DNA of 9,990 nt from Nitrospirae bacterium CG2_30_53_67 (GTDB lineage: Bacteria; CG2-30-53-67). Where the stretch lies: assembly GCA_001873285.1 (NCBI GenBank), contig MNYV01000167.1:1-9990 (forward strand). Reading direction: 5' to 3'. The position numbers were made by a program, and so were the translations under genes. Below the pieces are notes generated by a model. It had not been told where the DNA came from and searched no databases. It saw only the letters and a program-made list of their open reading frames with translations. Of this stretch, positions 1,923 to 9,213 are shown in pieces. Numbering within the stretch: position 1 is the first letter of the stretch; every line of letters starts with the position of its first letter.

Positions 1923-2990
1923 TCAGTACCATTTTTTCTTCTTGAAATAGAACAGCATGGCCGATGTGACCCCGATGATCACCATCCAGGTGAGAAGATA
2001 TCCATAACGCCATTTCAGTTCCGGCATGTATTCGAAATTCATTCCGTAAACACCAACGATGAACGTAGTGGGAATGAACAGGGTGGCGATGACGGTCAAG
2101 ACCTTCATGACCTCGTTCATTTTGTTGCTGATGCTCGACAGGTAGAGGTCGAGCATACCCGAGGTCATGTCACGGAATATCTCGATGGTATCCATGGCCT
2201 GGATGGTATGGTCGTACACGTCCCGGAGGAAGATCCCGGTGGACTCCTTGATCAGGGGGGATTCGCCTCTCTCAAGGCTGTTCACAACCTCCCGGAGAGG
2301 CCAGACCGACTTCCGTAACAGGATCATCTCTTTCTTCAGGCCGTGGATCGCATGCATGGTTTCCGTCCTGGGGGCGCTTACCAGCACTTCTTCAATCTCC
2401 TCGATCCACTCTCCGATATGCTCCAGGATCAAGAAGTAGCTGTCTACCACGGCATCGATCAGGGAGTAAGCCAGATAGTCGGCTCCCATCTTCCGGATTT
2501 TCATGTTTGATTTCCGGATCCTTTCCCGGATGGGATTGAAGACGTCCCTTTCTTTCTCCTCCTGAAAGGAGATCACGAAGTTTGAACCGAGCACCAGGCT
2601 GACCTGTTCGGTCTCAATCCGGTGGGCTGCCTTGTCCCAGTAAAGCATCTTCATGACGATAAATATATATTCAGGGAAATCCTCCATCTTCGGCCGCTGT
2701 TCCGTATTCACGATGTCCTCGAGGGTCAGGGCATGCAGTTTAAAAAGCTGCCCGATCTTTTCTATGATCTTAAGATCATGAACGCCGTCTATGTTGATCC
2801 ATGTGACCGTCGGCCTCTCCTTGAAGGGTAGGCATTCTTCAACCGTTTGAGCTTCTTTCTCTTCTAATTGTGTTTCATTATAATCCATGATTGTAATTTT
2901 AAGCTTCTCCGTTTTTTTCTCGCCTATGTGGACCAGGGTTCCCGGCGGGAGTCCGGCCTTTTGAGATCTTTTCTTGGTTATTTTAGACAT
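1923..2990 (-). CDS. corA: CorA-family magnesium/cobalt channel
   Basis: This 355-residue protein is of normal CorA length. A long, charged N-terminal cytoplasmic domain contains the family-typical WINIDG (around residues 64-69) and LHALTLEDIVN...QRPK. A stalk helix region follows, then two C-terminal membrane helices (about 295-315 and 327-348). The selectivity signature YGMNFEYMPEL follows the first helix (GMN at 316-318), and the chain ends in a basic tail (KKKKWY). CorA proteins are homopentameric channels that import Mg2+, sometimes Co2+ or Ni2+. A strong GGAGGGG site precedes ATG 2990, and the MFS gene ends only 14 bp upstream, so this is the last gene of the minus-strand block. In a fluoride operon a Mg2+ channel makes sense because fluoride inhibits enzymes as Mg-fluoride complexes; that link is inference. 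Confidence 0.93.
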   Translation of the reverse strand: MSKITKKRSQKAGLPPGTLVHIGEKKTEKLKITIMDYNETQLEEKEAQTVEECLPFKERPTVTWINIDGVHDLKIIEKIGQLFKLHALTLEDIVNTEQRPKMEDFPEYIFIVMKMLYWDKAAHRIETEQVSLVLGSNFVISFQEEKERDVFNPIRERIRKSNMKIRKMGADYLAYSLIDAVVDSYFLILEHIGEWIEEIEEVLVSAPRTETMHAIHGLKKEMILLRKSVWPLREVVNSLERGESPLIKESTGIFLRDVYDHTIQAMDTIEIFRDMTSGMLDLYLSSISNKMNEVMKVLTVIATLFIPTTFIVGVYGMNFEYMPELKWRYGYLLTWMVIIGVTSAMLFYFKKKKWY

Positions 2991-3004: not shown

Positions 3005-4218
3005 TCAGCGCAGAATGCAGTCAACTTTTTTTTCAGTCTCTTTATTGACGAATACGATGAATATAACAAATAATATGGCCGAAAGGGAAGCGGTTATTGC
3101 TCCAAAATAGAAAGTAGCCGATGGTGAAATATGATCCCAGAGCCAACCGCCGATAAGGCTGGCGGGGAGCATGGCAAGGCCGACGGCAGTGGTATAGACA
3201 CCGAAGGCCGTTGCCTTGAAGTCCGTCGGGATGATCGTGGCGAGAAACGCCTTCTGAATCCCCTCGGTCAATCCCATAAAGAGACCATAGAACCCGAACA
3301 GTATCCAGATGGCTTTTGTGCTCGATGCGGCTGCAAAGCCATAATAGAGTATAGTAAAGAGCACGAACCCCAGGAGGATGATCCTCTTTCTGCCGAACCG
3401 GTCTGCTGCCATCCCTGCAGGAACGGCTGAGAGCGAATACACGAGATTGAAGATCAGATAGACCACGGGAATCGTGACTGCCGGGATCCCGACCTGCTCC
3501 GCCCGAAGGATCAGGAAAACATCGCTTGAGTTGCCGACGGCGAAGAGGGCGGCAATGATGACAAAAAACTTGAACTTCCAGTCGAAATGCTTGAGCGTCA
3601 GCTTCGGCCTCTCCGACTGCGCAGCAGCGGTTTTTTTCTTTTCCGTGATGAAAAAGATGATGATCAGCACGGCAACGGTTCCCGGTATCATTGAGAGCCA
3701 GAAGACCTTGCGATAATCATTCGAAAAGATACCGAGAAAGAAAAAAGCCAGCGCAGGCCCGACAACAGCGCCCATGGTGTCCATGCAGCGGTGAAAGCCG
3801 AATGCCCGCCCGAGGCGCGACTTTTCCGTGGACTCGGCGATGATGGCGTCGCGCGGCGCGGTACGGATCCCCTTGCCGAACCGGTCCATGAATCTCGATC
3901 CCATCACCTGATGCCATCCCGTTGCCGGCGCAATGATCGGCCTGCTGAGTGTGGAGATGCCGTACCCGGCAGCCATGAGCCATTTGCGGTTCCCGATCCG
4001 GTCCGAGAACCAGCCGGAAAAAACCCTGAGCAGACTGGCGGTGGATTCTGCAACCCCTTCGATCAGACCGATCACCGATTTATTCACTCCCAGGACGTTT
4101 GACAGAAAAAGCGGAATAAGCGGATAGATCATCTCGGAGCTTAAGTCCATGAAAAAACTCACCAGCCCGGCGAAGAAAACATTCTTTCCGAAGCCGAAAA
4201 ACATTTTGTCTTTTTTCA

Positions 4219-4219
<1 letters not shown>
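3005..4219 (-). CDS. MFS transporter (12-helix permease)
   Basis: This 404-residue protein is typical of a 12-helix major facilitator. The first loop 2-3 motif is GWFSDRIGNRK (residues 69-79) and its repeat in the second half is AGMAADRFGRKR (about 268-279). A conserved MDRFGKGIRTAPRDAIIAES lies at 111-130. A charged central loop (EKKKTAAAQSERPK, about 193-206) separates the two six-helix halves. The N-terminal MDLSSEMIYPLIPLFLSNVLG is a common opening in this subgroup. The substrate cannot be read from sequence. ATG 4219 shares one base with the TAA of the HAD gene, and the corA-like gene follows after 14 bp, so translation is probably coupled. Its place in a fluoride-responsive block suggests a role in ion or solute homeostasis during fluoride stress (inference). 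Confidence 0.88.
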
Positions 4220-5291
<1,072 letters not shown>

Positions 5292-5327
5292 TTATCTCCT
5301 TCTTAATCATTATTATTGAAATCTTCA

Positions 5328-5444
5328 TCATGCAATCTCCTCAATCCTGGAGTAGAGCGTCGTCAGGAACCCGTTGATCTTCGGCGTTATGTGTTCGAGA
5401 TGGTCGCGTGTTTCGGCAACAAAGCAGTCGTGTCTGCCTCTTTA
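5328..5444 (-). pseudogene. Tail of an unidentified reading frame
   Basis: Reading the minus strand into TGA 5330-5328, about 35 codons are open and give a protein-like amphipathic helix: DCFVAETRDHLEHIT, then PKINGFLTTLYSRIEEIA. The frame is closed upstream by a stop near 5450 and has no start or ribosome site of its own. It differs in frame from the transposase remnant it abuts. It may be the end of a separate degraded gene joined to the remnant. I do not recognise the family, and chance coding cannot be excluded at this length. Confidence 0.3.
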
Positions 5445-5572
5445 AGTTTGTACCCATGTTCCGGATGGGCACGGGCCATATTCTCATTCCGCTCGCCGCT
5501 TCTCAGTGCTTCTTTCAGCAGTCTTGAAAGAGGCGGCCTGTTTGCATAGCGCTGGGAATGTGGAATCTCTTT
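5387..5572 (-). pseudogene. C-terminal remnant of a REP-associated (Y1_Tnp) transposase
   Basis: In the 328-bp gap between the GTPase and enolase genes, one minus-strand frame reads KEIPHSQRYANRPPL, a short acidic/basic linker, then ARAHPEHGYKLKEAD before it loses similarity near 5432 and stops at 5387. This matches from memory the C-terminal region of REP-associated tyrosine transposases of the type EIPKxQRxxxRPxLEELF followed by a helix-turn-helix HGYTLKEIA. The catalytic HUH domain is absent upstream, where a stop lies near 5605, and the helix-turn-helix is cut short. It is therefore a dead fragment. Its presence suggests that the GTPase-enolase junction was once a transposon insertion point. 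The assignment rests on about 45 residues and needs a profile search. Confidence 0.55.
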
Positions 5573-5616
5573 TGGGCGGGCCTGGGTTTGCCGCTGAACG
5601 GACTTAGAACTCTAAA

Positions 5617-7398
5617 CTATGACCCCAAATGATGCGGATCCGGATGCCGGCCGGAACGATCCAGTATCCGGAGCGCCCGTTCTTTCAAGGCATACAGATG
5701 ATCCAGATCCGTCCGGATCTCAGTCTCACGTTTAGCCGCTTCTTCCTTGCCCTTTTCTTTGCGGGCGATCCCCCGCTGAACCGCATTCCGAATCTCTTGG
5801 ATCGTCTCGTCAATCTTGGCGAACATCACCCAGCGGACCTCCAGTTTGCTCTTCTGAAGTCTTTCCACAAAGTCCCAGCGGATCCGGCCCGATTGCTGCT
5901 CGATCATGGCGGCGAGATAACGCCTCATGCTTCTCGCGATGATGGGATGGCTCAGGAAGCGGGGCATCATGGTGGTCAGCGCATTTCCAAGGATTTCCAC
6001 CATGATCGGTTCATCCTTGAAGATGAAATAGAAAGAGGATTTCATGGTCCACAGGGATTCCGCATCAAAGGTCTCAAAACCCACGGAAAAAAGATCGGAG
6101 GCATAGTGCAGAAGAGCATCTATGATCTCATTGATCCTGGTCACGAACCGTTCGCATCCCTTCTCAAACGCCATGGAGATCTTGGTGTCTTCGTTCTTCC
6201 GGAATACCGTGTCATACTCCTTGACCTGGTGGACAACAAATTCTTCAAGGGCCTTTCTCAGCTTTCCGGGTGAAAGGCTTCTGTTTCGGGCGTAGAAATC
6301 CTCGAAGGCGGGACCGAGGCCTTGGGCCAGATCTTTCTTGGCCGCATTCAGGTCCGGGTCCAGGATCTTTTCAATGATCCGCTTGGTCTCTCCTTCGAGG
6401 AGAATCTCAAAATCATTCTTGTCGGCCTCGATCTCCCTTTGTTTTTCTTCAAAGGTGTCCAGTTTTTTCTGGATCAATTCCAGGGGGGTATTCATGGACT
6501 TGTATTCCAGTTCCGCCCTGAGGATGGCCTCGGAGAGGACCTTAAGAAGATTTTTAGCGGCCGAACGGATCAGGATCCCTCCCTTCTCTTCCACAAGGAA
6601 CCTGTGCAGCCTCTCTTCGAATACCGTGAGACGGCTCGCTTCGAGGGCCGCCGGGTCCCGGTTCAATTTCCCCTCCAGTCCGAGCCTGGCGGAGAGGGGA
6701 TAGACCTCGATGGTTTCGTATCCCGCCTCATCCTGGAGGACTCTTCCCGTAAAGGCAAGAGACTCCTTGAGATCTTCGGGTGTGAGGTAATCGGCCTTGT
6801 TCTGGATGAAGAATATCCGGTCCGAGTACTGCTTGACATCCTTGAGAAAATCCAGTTCGGCCTTGCTCAGCGGCTGGTCCACCGAAATCAGGAAGACCGC
6901 CGCATCGGAGCGCGGGAGATATTCATAGGCTACGTCCGTATTGTGCTGGTACACGGAACCGACCCCCGGCGTGTCGATGAGCCGCACACCCTCCCGAAGA
7001 TACGGCGACGGATACTGGATGCTCACCTCGGCCACATCCCGCTTATTCCTGGGGTTGCCGCTCTCGGTCACGTAGAGGGGAAGCTCCTCCAGCGGGATTT
7101 CCTTGTTCTCTCCATTGTTCAGGAAGACCTTGATCGTCACGGAGTCCCCGTATTCAATCACGGTCACAATGGAGGTCAGCGGGACCACGGCCGTGGGAAG
7201 CAGGTCGGCGCCGAGGAGGGCATTGATGAAGGTGGTCTTGCCGCGCTTGAACTGCCCGACCACAACGAGATTGAAACGGTTCTCCATGAGTTTTCGGCGC
7301 AGGTCGCTGCATGGACACTCGGGAACCGCTTCCACTGTGGAGACCTCGTCAATAGTCCGGATCATTTCGTCACGGAGTCCGGCAAAATCTTCGTTCAT
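5617..7398 (-). CDS. Bacterial dynamin-like GTPase
   Basis: This 593-residue protein carries all the dynamin-superfamily GTPase motifs near its N-terminus. The P-loop is GQFKRGKTT (residues 48-56), the G2 threonine lies in PLTSIVT (about 73-79), G3 is IDTPGVGS (141-148) and G4 is QNKADYL (199-205). The remaining 380 residues are mostly charged helix, including an EKKLDTFEEK-type heptad stretch and a KEKGKEEAAKRE-rich C-terminal coiled coil. A moderately hydrophobic segment near residues 465-490 could be the membrane-binding paddle. Bacterial dynamins remodel or protect membranes in a GTP-dependent way, often under stress. The gene has AAGGAG before ATG 7398 and starts 23 bp after the uspA-like gene, so it belongs to the same transcript. 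Its last codons (HHLGS, TAG) end next to transposase debris, so the native C-terminus may have been altered. A specific link to fluoride is not established. Confidence 0.88.
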   Translation of the reverse strand: MNEDFAGLRDEMIRTIDEVSTVEAVPECPCSDLRRKLMENRFNLVVVGQFKRGKTTFINALLGADLLPTAVVPLTSIVTVIEYGDSVTIKVFLNNGENKEIPLEELPLYVTESGNPRNKRDVAEVSIQYPSPYLREGVRLIDTPGVGSVYQHNTDVAYEYLPRSDAAVFLISVDQPLSKAELDFLKDVKQYSDRIFFIQNKADYLTPEDLKESLAFTGRVLQDEAGYETIEVYPLSARLGLEGKLNRDPAALEASRLTVFEERLHRFLVEEKGGILIRSAAKNLLKVLSEAILRAELEYKSMNTPLELIQKKLDTFEEKQREIEADKNDFEILLEGETKRIIEKILDPDLNAAKKDLAQGLGPAFEDFYARNRSLSPGKLRKALEEFVVHQVKEYDTVFRKNEDTKISMAFEKGCERFVTRINEIIDALLHYASDLFSVGFETFDAESLWTMKSSFYFIFKDEPIMVEILGNALTTMMPRFLSHPIIARSMRRYLAAMIEQQSGRIRWDFVERLQKSKLEVRWVMFAKIDETIQEIRNAVQRGIARKEKGKEEAAKRETEIRTDLDHLYALKERALRILDRSGRHPDPHHLGS

Positions 7399-7421: not shown

Positions 7422-7847
7422 CTATTTCACGATCATTACCGTGCAGGGAGAATAGGTCGAGACTCTTTTCGAGACTGAACCAAGAAGCCAGCTCTTTATC
7501 TTGGATTTACCCCGCTGTCCCACGATCACCATATCACAATTCTTTTCTTTCGCATATCTCACGATTTGATCGGCAGGATGTCCTACAACAACTTCCGTCT
7601 TGATTTCAAGATTCCTCTCTTTTGCTTTTTCCCTGAGCTTTTCGAAAAGTCCCTCATAATGCTGCGTCGCGCTGTCAATGATCGCATCCACCTCGACGAT
7701 GTCGGCAGGCTCCGGAGGCTGTGCGACTGAAAGCACGGTGATCTCAGGGGCGGCGACAGGGCAGAGTTTCGACATATTAAGGGCAAACTCAAACGCTTTA
7801 TAGGATTGAGGTGAACCGTCAAATGCAATGAGTATTTTCTTAAACAT
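7422..7847 (-). CDS. Universal stress protein, ATP-binding UspA type
   Basis: This single-domain Usp has 141 residues. The start is ATG 7847, with AAAGGAGG just upstream; the frame is open for 18 more codons but these run into the end of the antiporter gene. The N-terminus KKILIAFDGSPQSYKAFEFA places Asp10 at the nucleotide site. The ATP-binding signature G-x2-G-x9-G-S is exact: G110-QR-G113, nine residues, G123-S124. It is followed by the STYSPCTVMIVK end strand typical of the family. Usp proteins are cytoplasmic dimers that bind ATP and support survival under stress. The gene begins 13 bp after the antiporter stop. Usp genes are among those reported under fluoride riboswitch control, which agrees with this position. 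Confidence 0.93.
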   Translation of the reverse strand: MFKKILIAFDGSPQSYKAFEFALNMSKLCPVAAPEITVLSVAQPPEPADIVEVDAIIDSATQHYEGLFEKLREKAKERNLEIKTEVVVGHPADQIVRYAKEKNCDMVIVGQRGKSKIKSWLLGSVSKRVSTYSPCTVMIVK

Positions 7848-7860
7848 GATGACCTCCTTT

Positions 7861-9069
7861 TTATTCAGGGCTGCCGCCCGGTGAAATTTCCAAAGATCCA
7901 TCCGGCGCTTCCTCGGGTCTCCCTTCCGGCAGCAGATATTTTGGAATAAAGAATGCGTTTGCGATCAGTGTCGGCACTACGGCGCTCCCGATAACAACCA
8001 CAACGAGAAGTGAATACTGGGATTGATCTATGATCCCATGGTTCAGACCGAAAAGGGCGGAAATGGAGCCGAAGGTCAAGCCGGTGGACATGAGAAGCGT
8101 GGTGTAAATCCCTTCCTTTTGCGCATATCTATAAAATCTTGTTGCAGGGTAAACTCCTATGACCTTGGTGACCATCTTTGTCATGAAGAGAACGAGAAGC
8201 GCCATTGGAGCTGCAAAAACAGCCGGGACAGATACATAGGAACCTGCCCTGATAAAGTAAAAAGGGGTAAGAAGACCAAAGGTCAGCGTTCGTAATCTCC
8301 GGATAAGAACATGATCTTTGCCGACCGTTCCTGCAAGCGCCATCCCTACGACATAGGCCGGCAGCACGGCTTCACTGTCCGACCATACGGCCAGCGAGCC
8401 GAGCCCGAACAGTATGAGAAGGAGATACTTGGCTTCAGGCTCAGACGGCCTCCCCCCGTATTTTTTGAAAAACCTCGGGGTGAGGTAGGGAAGGGCGACA
8501 AAGGCAGTGATGCTGACGGCAGCAAAGATTAACGTCCTGCCTGTAAAGGGCGCAAATATCAGGCCGAGCGATATGACCGTGCCGAGATCGGTGATAAAGC
8601 ATGCAGCCAGGACCGTTTTCCCGAACTCCGTCTTGTTCAGCCCCAGTTCGAGCATGACCGCATAAACCACTGCTACCGATGTCGTGGAGAGCGCAACCCC
8701 GGCAAGCCAGCTCGCCCTGACCGTCCAGTTCAGCAGATAATAGGCAACAGCGGCACATCCGAGGAAAGGGGCAAAGAATGAGACAAGGCCTATTGCGGTT
8801 GCCTCTTTCCATTTTGCTTTGAACACCGCCGGGTCCAGCTCAGCGCCTGCAAGAAAGGTCAATACGATAGCGCCTGTTCCCGATAAGAACTTGATCCACG
8901 GCAAATCGGCGCCAAGCGTCGTTCCAATAAGAGCCGCTATGACTAATTGTGCGACCGTGCCGACAAGGATTTCAGAAAGAGCGGTTGCAATTCGAAACCA
9001 GATGGAAAGTAAAGTGGCGATCAAGGCAAGTCCTATCCATAGCGCCGCCATTCCCCAGACTTCATGCAT
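7861..9069 (-). CDS. CPA2-type cation/proton antiporter, first gene under the fluoride riboswitch
   Basis: This 402-residue protein is almost entirely hydrophobic, with some 11-13 membrane helices. The CPA2 landmarks are SEILVGTVAQLV (32-43), FLAGAELDP (72-80), ALSTTSVAVVYAVMLELGL (126-144) and ACFITDLGTV (156-165), which holds the probable ion-binding pair Thr160-Asp161. Typical electrogenic CPA2 proteins have two acids (DD) there, so Thr-Asp may signify a different ion or stoichiometry. There is no Kef-type NAD-binding (TrkA-N) domain; instead a short proline- and acid-rich tail (EGRPEEAPDGSLEISPGGSP) follows the last helix. ATG 9069 has AAAGGAG upstream and lies 23 bp after the riboswitch terminator U-tract. 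Sodium/proton antiporters are known fluoride riboswitch clients, so this is the prime candidate for the fluoride-tolerance transporter here. The transported ion is unproven. Confidence 0.9.
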   Translation of the reverse strand: MHEVWGMAALWIGLALIATLLSIWFRIATALSEILVGTVAQLVIAALIGTTLGADLPWIKFLSGTGAIVLTFLAGAELDPAVFKAKWKEATAIGLVSFFAPFLGCAAVAYYLLNWTVRASWLAGVALSTTSVAVVYAVMLELGLNKTEFGKTVLAACFITDLGTVISLGLIFAPFTGRTLIFAAVSITAFVALPYLTPRFFKKYGGRPSEPEAKYLLLILFGLGSLAVWSDSEAVLPAYVVGMALAGTVGKDHVLIRRLRTLTFGLLTPFYFIRAGSYVSVPAVFAAPMALLVLFMTKMVTKVIGVYPATRFYRYAQKEGIYTTLLMSTGLTFGSISALFGLNHGIIDQSQYSLLVVVVIGSAVVPTLIANAFFIPKYLLPEGRPEEAPDGSLEISPGGSPE

Positions 9070-9091: not shown

Positions 9092-9125
9092 AAAAAAATC
9101 CTACCCTTCGCTCTAAAGAGTAGGA
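9092..9125 (-). terminator. Intrinsic terminator forming the expression platform of the riboswitch
   Basis: On the minus strand TCCTACTCTT (9125-9116) pairs with AAGGGTAGGA (9108-9099) over 10 bp with a single U-G wobble. It encloses a seven-base loop and is followed directly by seven U residues (9098-9092). Bases 9125-9123 are also needed for the aptamer pseudoknot, so the two structures exclude one another. Fluoride binding should block the hairpin and allow read-through into the antiporter gene. Confidence 0.9.
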
Positions 9126-9173
9126 GTCATCAGCTTCGTTTGGGGAAGCAGTCAACGGCGAACTCCATCGCCG
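9121..9173 (-). promoter_or_regulatory. Fluoride riboswitch aptamer (crcB motif, Rfam RF01734 class)
   Basis: Read on the minus strand, stem P1 is CGGCGA (9173-9168) with TCGCCG (9161-9156), closed by loop TGGAGT. A second stem, GCTTC (9149-9145) with GAAGC (9137-9133), follows, then the conserved CTGATGACTCCTAC. Loop bases GGAGT (9166-9162) are complementary to ACTCC (9127-9123), giving the pseudoknot that defines this class. The GATGGnnTTCGCC and CTGATG...CTCCTAC segments match the recalled fluoride consensus. In known cases fluoride is held by Mg2+ ions at the junction and expression rises with fluoride. It lies between a promoter candidate and an overlapping terminator, directly before the antiporter gene. 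An Infernal search with RF01734 would settle it. Confidence 0.92.
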
Positions 9174-9183
9174 ACTTTTTTTA

Positions 9184-9213
9184 AACATATCAAAACAAAA
9201 GATGTCCTGTCAA
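9184..9213 (-). promoter_or_regulatory. Sigma-70-type promoter candidate for the fluoride operon
   Basis: On the minus strand a perfect -35 TTGACA (9213-9208) is separated by 18 bp from TATGTT (9189-9184), which matches the -10 consensus at four of six positions. Transcription would begin near 9177, only a few bases before riboswitch stem P1. That is the expected position for a leader RNA. Start site not measured. Confidence 0.65.

Follow-up and report, generated by a model that had tools for sequence, protein, structure and literature searches.

A fluoride riboswitch upstream of an operon that includes a predicted dynamin-like GTPase in a Nitrospirae bacterium

The minus strand of the window (the whole stretch of 9,990 nucleotides from contig MNYV01000167.1 analysed here) carries an apparent fluoride-sensing leader followed by a block of genes that look unrelated. 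Which of these genes belong to a common fluoride regulon, and why would a GTPase resembling bacterial dynamins be among them?

The leader and its switch

An earlier note on this DNA had described a promoter, a fluoride aptamer, a five-base pseudoknot and a terminator on the minus strand, and each of these elements was recovered at its proposed place:

9184..9213, minus strand: sigma-70-like promoter candidate, TTGACA-18-TATGTT, with TG before the second hexamer (pattern scan, 10 of 12 matches)
9114..9181, minus strand: fluoride riboswitch aptamer, RF01734 (Rfam covariance model, full length)
9162..9166, minus strand: 5' strand of the pseudoknot, GGAGU, in the loop of the first hairpin
9123..9127, minus strand: 3' strand of the pseudoknot, ACUCC, partly common to the terminator
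9092..9125, minus strand: intrinsic terminator, an 11-pair stem (9125-9099) and a T tract (pattern scan, about -13 to -14 kcal/mol)

The Rfam search that the note had proposed returned a match to RF01734 at 9181-9114(-), covering model positions 1-64, with a score of 53.1 bits (E = 1.1e-12) against a gathering cut-off of 34 bits, in support of its reading of the leader as a fluoride riboswitch with a terminator ahead of a gene block. The RF01734 search detected no second fluoride riboswitch elsewhere in the 2.36-Mb assembly, so that the leader copy is the sole one. The promoter candidate is, as a pattern, near chance level (one found compared with 0.4 expected in shuffled sequences) and owes its weight to its position just before the aptamer, because transcription would start a few bases upstream of the latter.

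In the pseudoknot, GGAGU (9166-9162) pairs with ACUCC (9127-9123). The 5' arm of the terminator starts at 9125, that is, within the 3' strand of the pseudoknot, of which it takes the last three bases; the stem is followed by seven T. A terminator overlapping the pseudoknot is present in 14 of the 15 scanned leaders of related antiporter genes and in most of the GTPase leaders, and in these relatives the overlap usually extends to all five bases, compared with three in the window. Across 56 related leaders (seven of which were misread by the parser at the 3' strand), covariation usually links the loop, the 3' strand and the terminator arm, yielding triplets such as GGAGU/ACUCC/GGAGU, GAAGU/ACUUC/GAAGU and GAGGU/ACCUC/GAGGU; no terminator match was found in two betaproteobacterial leaders among the 56. 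Because the three strands change together, these leaders support mutually exclusive pairing and an ON switch, the same terminator logic that was proposed for the crcB motif by Weinberg in 2010 (PMC2864571).

Under this logic, the terminator hairpin would form without fluoride, and RNA polymerase would halt near 9092, at the T tract. Once fluoride is bound (with Mg2+), the GGAGU/ACUCC pseudoknot would be held and the 5' arm of the terminator would not be free, so that the polymerase would read through into the genes for the antiporter, the universal stress protein, the GTPase, the broken enolase, the HAD phosphatase, the MFS transporter and, perhaps, CorA. Membership in the RF01734 family suggests that the leader binds fluoride, and known relatives suggest that fluoride drives the read-through. 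The Bacillus cereus crcB riboswitch shares the aptamer, the pseudoknot, the terminator that uses the 3' pseudoknot strand, and the ON logic; in place of crcB, the leader in the window precedes a CPA2 antiporter operon that contains a dynamin gene, and it has the three-base overlap between terminator and pseudoknot. This short overlap, below that in most relatives, would fit a decayed riboswitch or one that acts on translation rather than on termination, but the conserved core at 53 bits, the 11-pair stem with seven T and the location of the ribosome-binding site far past the T tract make either version very improbable. We therefore favor, with a probability of roughly 0.88, a fluoride-sensing transcriptional ON riboswitch that drives a fluoride-resistance operon including the dynamin-like GTPase. 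The leader alone is routine, an ordinary switch of this type.

The downstream operon and its truncated enolase

Downstream of the leader, the following genes were identified:

7861..9069, minus strand: CPA2-type cation/proton antiporter (PF00999)
7422..7847, minus strand: universal stress protein, Usp (PF00582)
5617..7398, minus strand: bacterial dynamin-like GTPase, 593 aa
4638..5288, minus strand: truncated enolase, 216 aa, predicted to be inactive
4219..4689, minus strand: small HAD-type phosphatase, recurrent in riboswitch loci
3005..4219, minus strand: MFS transporter, recurrent in riboswitch loci
1923..2990, minus strand: CorA divalent-cation transporter, possibly cotranscribed

Most of these genes overlap or are separated by fewer than 25 bases, the exception being the 328 bases between the GTPase and enolase genes. 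This gap could hold another control site; a search of 5250-5660 for RNA families, including a second riboswitch before the enolase gene, produced no match.

The antiporters encoded in loci L017-L028 and L030 are 76-86% identical to that in the window and likewise follow an RF01734 match. Altogether, sixteen relatives of the antiporter, mostly from Nitrospirota metagenome-assembled genomes (MAGs), have an RF01734 match in the locus, nearly always just before the antiporter gene, and in many of these loci, Usp, GTPase, HAD and MFS genes adjoin the antiporter; the same gene set follows fluoride riboswitches in other phyla. The antiporter would serve pH and ion balance. Previously described partners of fluoride riboswitches include antiporters, enolase and HAD phosphatases (PMC11139923), and Usp and enolase belong to the FRM fluoride operon of Enterobacter cloacae (ppaC-uspA-eno-gpmA-crcB; PMC5533749), which thus resembles the locus in the window in combining the riboswitch, Usp and enolase in one operon. 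The E. cloacae operon, however, consists of six genes and lacks the dynamin, antiporter, HAD and MFS genes (PMC5533749), and in the window, the enolase is truncated. Hence, the antiporter, Usp, enolase and HAD phosphatase are known members of fluoride regulons, and the GTPase is the surprise.

The expectation of the earlier note that the leader unites genes that otherwise look unrelated is borne out for the antiporter, Usp, GTPase, enolase, HAD and MFS genes, which recur together after fluoride riboswitches in other genomes, but not for CorA, which appears in none of the 100 fluoride-riboswitch loci compared and was accordingly rejected as a conserved member of the operon. The CorA gene lies 14 bases from the MFS gene, with a promoter candidate at 3008-2980, and is perhaps part of the operon in this genome. 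The MFS transporter (4219-3005(-) in the window) was observed in 15 of the 100 loci (L017, L019, L020, L023, L024 and others), always on the riboswitch strand.

Of the 216 residues of the truncated protein, those up to residue 197 resemble enolases, and the start of the HAD gene falls within the last bases of the enolase gene. Only positions 1-194 of the 425 in the enolase profile are present, and the complete C-terminal barrel with the catalytic and Mg2+-binding residues is missing. We considered a functional half-enolase and rejected this possibility because relatives with the gene order GTPase-enolase-HAD encode a full enolase: one locus has it between the GTPase and HAD genes (L163) and another before HAD (L089), the full length in relatives being 428-431 aa. 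Contig 36 of the same genome as the window encodes another enolase, which is full-length. A deletion that joined the enolase gene to the ribosome-binding site of the HAD gene explains the truncation, with misassembly as a possible source as well; most likely, the fluoride-controlled enolase copy is a remnant.

Recurrent association of the GTPase gene with fluoride riboswitches

Of 100 fluoride-riboswitch loci taken from 395 Nitrospirota genomes, 22 encode the GTPase, with partial matches counted, downstream of the riboswitch and on its strand, and none encodes it on the opposite strand. The 395 genomes themselves were searched with an alignment of 26 riboswitch-linked GTPases, a query whose composition focuses the search on this subfamily. 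The GTPase was detected in 49 genomes, 47 of which are riboswitch-positive, compared with 159 of the 395 overall (Fisher p = 1.3e-18, a value that ignores relatedness). Among the 45 near-full copies, 27 have their start 18-189 bp past a riboswitch, and another 11 are located at most 9 kb downstream of one; for the remaining seven, some of them at contig ends, no riboswitch was found upstream on the same contig.

In a second phylum (that of G018, a MAG deposited as Deltaproteobacteria), GTPase matches were found in 47 of 395 genomes, and in 25 of the 30 loci scanned, a riboswitch is located just upstream on the GTPase strand. The median identity of the GTPases between the two phyla is 37%. The sequences come mostly from MAGs, and phylogenetic independence was judged from the two phyla together with the sequence divergence. 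More distant dynamins also follow fluoride riboswitches (L147, L148 and L004). In the window's own phylum, two of the eight genomes surveyed are riboswitch-positive. Thus, a bacterial dynamin recurs as a fluoride-riboswitch target in at least two bacterial phyla. In open-access full text, which does not extend to the principal gene list for these riboswitches (Baker 2012), "dynamin" occurs together with neither "fluoride riboswitch" nor "crcB".

Several of the riboswitches in the second phylum belong to back-to-back pairs. In seven loci (L219, L221, L225, L228, L229, L232 and L233), two riboswitches lie on opposite strands, about 100-200 bp apart, one before the GTPase gene and the other, where the partner was identified, before an antiporter gene (L219 and L225) or a CrcB gene, accompanied by DUF190 (L229, and by sequence likeness L228 and L233).

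Several additional features of these loci are worth recording. In six loci (L219, L222, L223, L224, L229 and L230), the GTPase gene is followed by one for a phosphoglycerate mutase-like histidine phosphatase; the E. cloacae FRM operon carries gpmA (PMC5533749). A STAND-like ATPase and/or a small zinc-ribbon/HEAT protein is encoded between the GTPase and HAD genes in three loci (L019 13392-14554, L021 8573-9391 and L026 12910-13296). Three or four fluoride riboswitches occur within about 10 kb in L027 (1509-11165), L023 (9899-18758) and L198. In the window's family, a fluoride riboswitch (L005 1501-1565) precedes a gene for a hydrogenase/NADH dehydrogenase-like membrane subunit.

Contamination of the contig was considered and rejected. 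The tetranucleotide profile of the window matches that of its own genome at 0.964, within the range of the genome's own contigs (0.919-0.979), compared with 0.49-0.87 for the Nitrospirota loci.

Nature and possible role of the GTPase

The GTPase motifs G1 (GQFKRGKT), G3 (DTPG) and G4 (NKAD) are intact, and their key glycine, lysine and aspartate columns are invariant in the 26 aligned sequences. The structure model (mean pLDDT 82) represents a bacterial dynamin-like protein, the best PDB matches by both sequence and fold being IniA, BDLP and Campylobacter DLP; the long helical trunk after the GTPase domain is present in the model, with 510 residues aligned to IniA (Z 24.6, rmsd 11.0). A putative membrane-contact region around residues 437-480 falls partly below pLDDT 50, and hydrophobicity within the trunk is highest in a stretch starting at residue 465. 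IniA, Nostoc BDLP, Campylobacter DLP and Bacillus subtilis DynA have the same combination of a GTPase domain and a long helical trunk, but the window's GTPase is about 16-18% identical to such proteins in fold alignments and, unlike them, is predicted to be under fluoride riboswitch control. No NCBIfam model reaches its cut-off for this GTPase, which is the sole Dynamin_N protein in its genome.

Judging from the fold, the GTPase may act at the membrane, protecting or reshaping it under the stress of HF entry and acidification, and not stand in for a poisoned enzyme. In B. subtilis, DynA accumulates where membranes are damaged (PMC8844932), and by analogy, membrane protection under HF stress could be the function here. 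A different possibility is that the GTPase is overproduced as compensation, with fluoride, as AlF4- or MgF3- together with GDP, blocking the GTPase molecules already in the pool. Spare copies of enzymes that fluoride inhibits are frequent in fluoride regulons, compensation has already been proposed for enolase and pyrophosphatase (PMC5533749, PMC11139923), and the active-site motifs of the GTPase are intact. However, a search of 24 genomes for unlinked dynamins detected none in 15 of them. This result counts against a spare copy of a housekeeping GTPase, favors a dedicated role, and leaves no constitutive copy to compensate for in those 15 genomes; enolase differs in having the second, full copy. 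We consider compensation unlikely.

The GTPase might also be an anti-phage or general defence gene that resides in fluoride islands by chance, given its weak matches to the PADLOC models LeoA and LeoBC and the fact that DynA limits phage release in B. subtilis (PMC8844932). Such chance residence is hard to reconcile with a riboswitch directly adjoining the GTPase gene in two phyla, at spacings of 18-189 bp in the first, and with the strand bias of 22 loci to none, so that we regard it as quite improbable. The broader proposal, which we put at even odds, is that bacterial dynamins of a distinct family serve specifically in the fluoride response of several phyla, being produced on demand through fluoride riboswitches and protecting or remodelling the membrane under HF stress.

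The dynamin identity of the GTPase and the truncation of the enolase are two notable points beyond the earlier note. The survey also yields many natural leaders in which the aptamer and terminator strands covary. The pairing of riboswitch and dynamin provides a defined inducer (NaF) and a clear, testable phenotype for studying this dynamin family, and raises the prospect that fluoride toxicity includes membrane damage, to which bacteria respond with a specific protein. If the proposed role holds, fluoride resistance would include membrane maintenance besides export and enzyme replacement.
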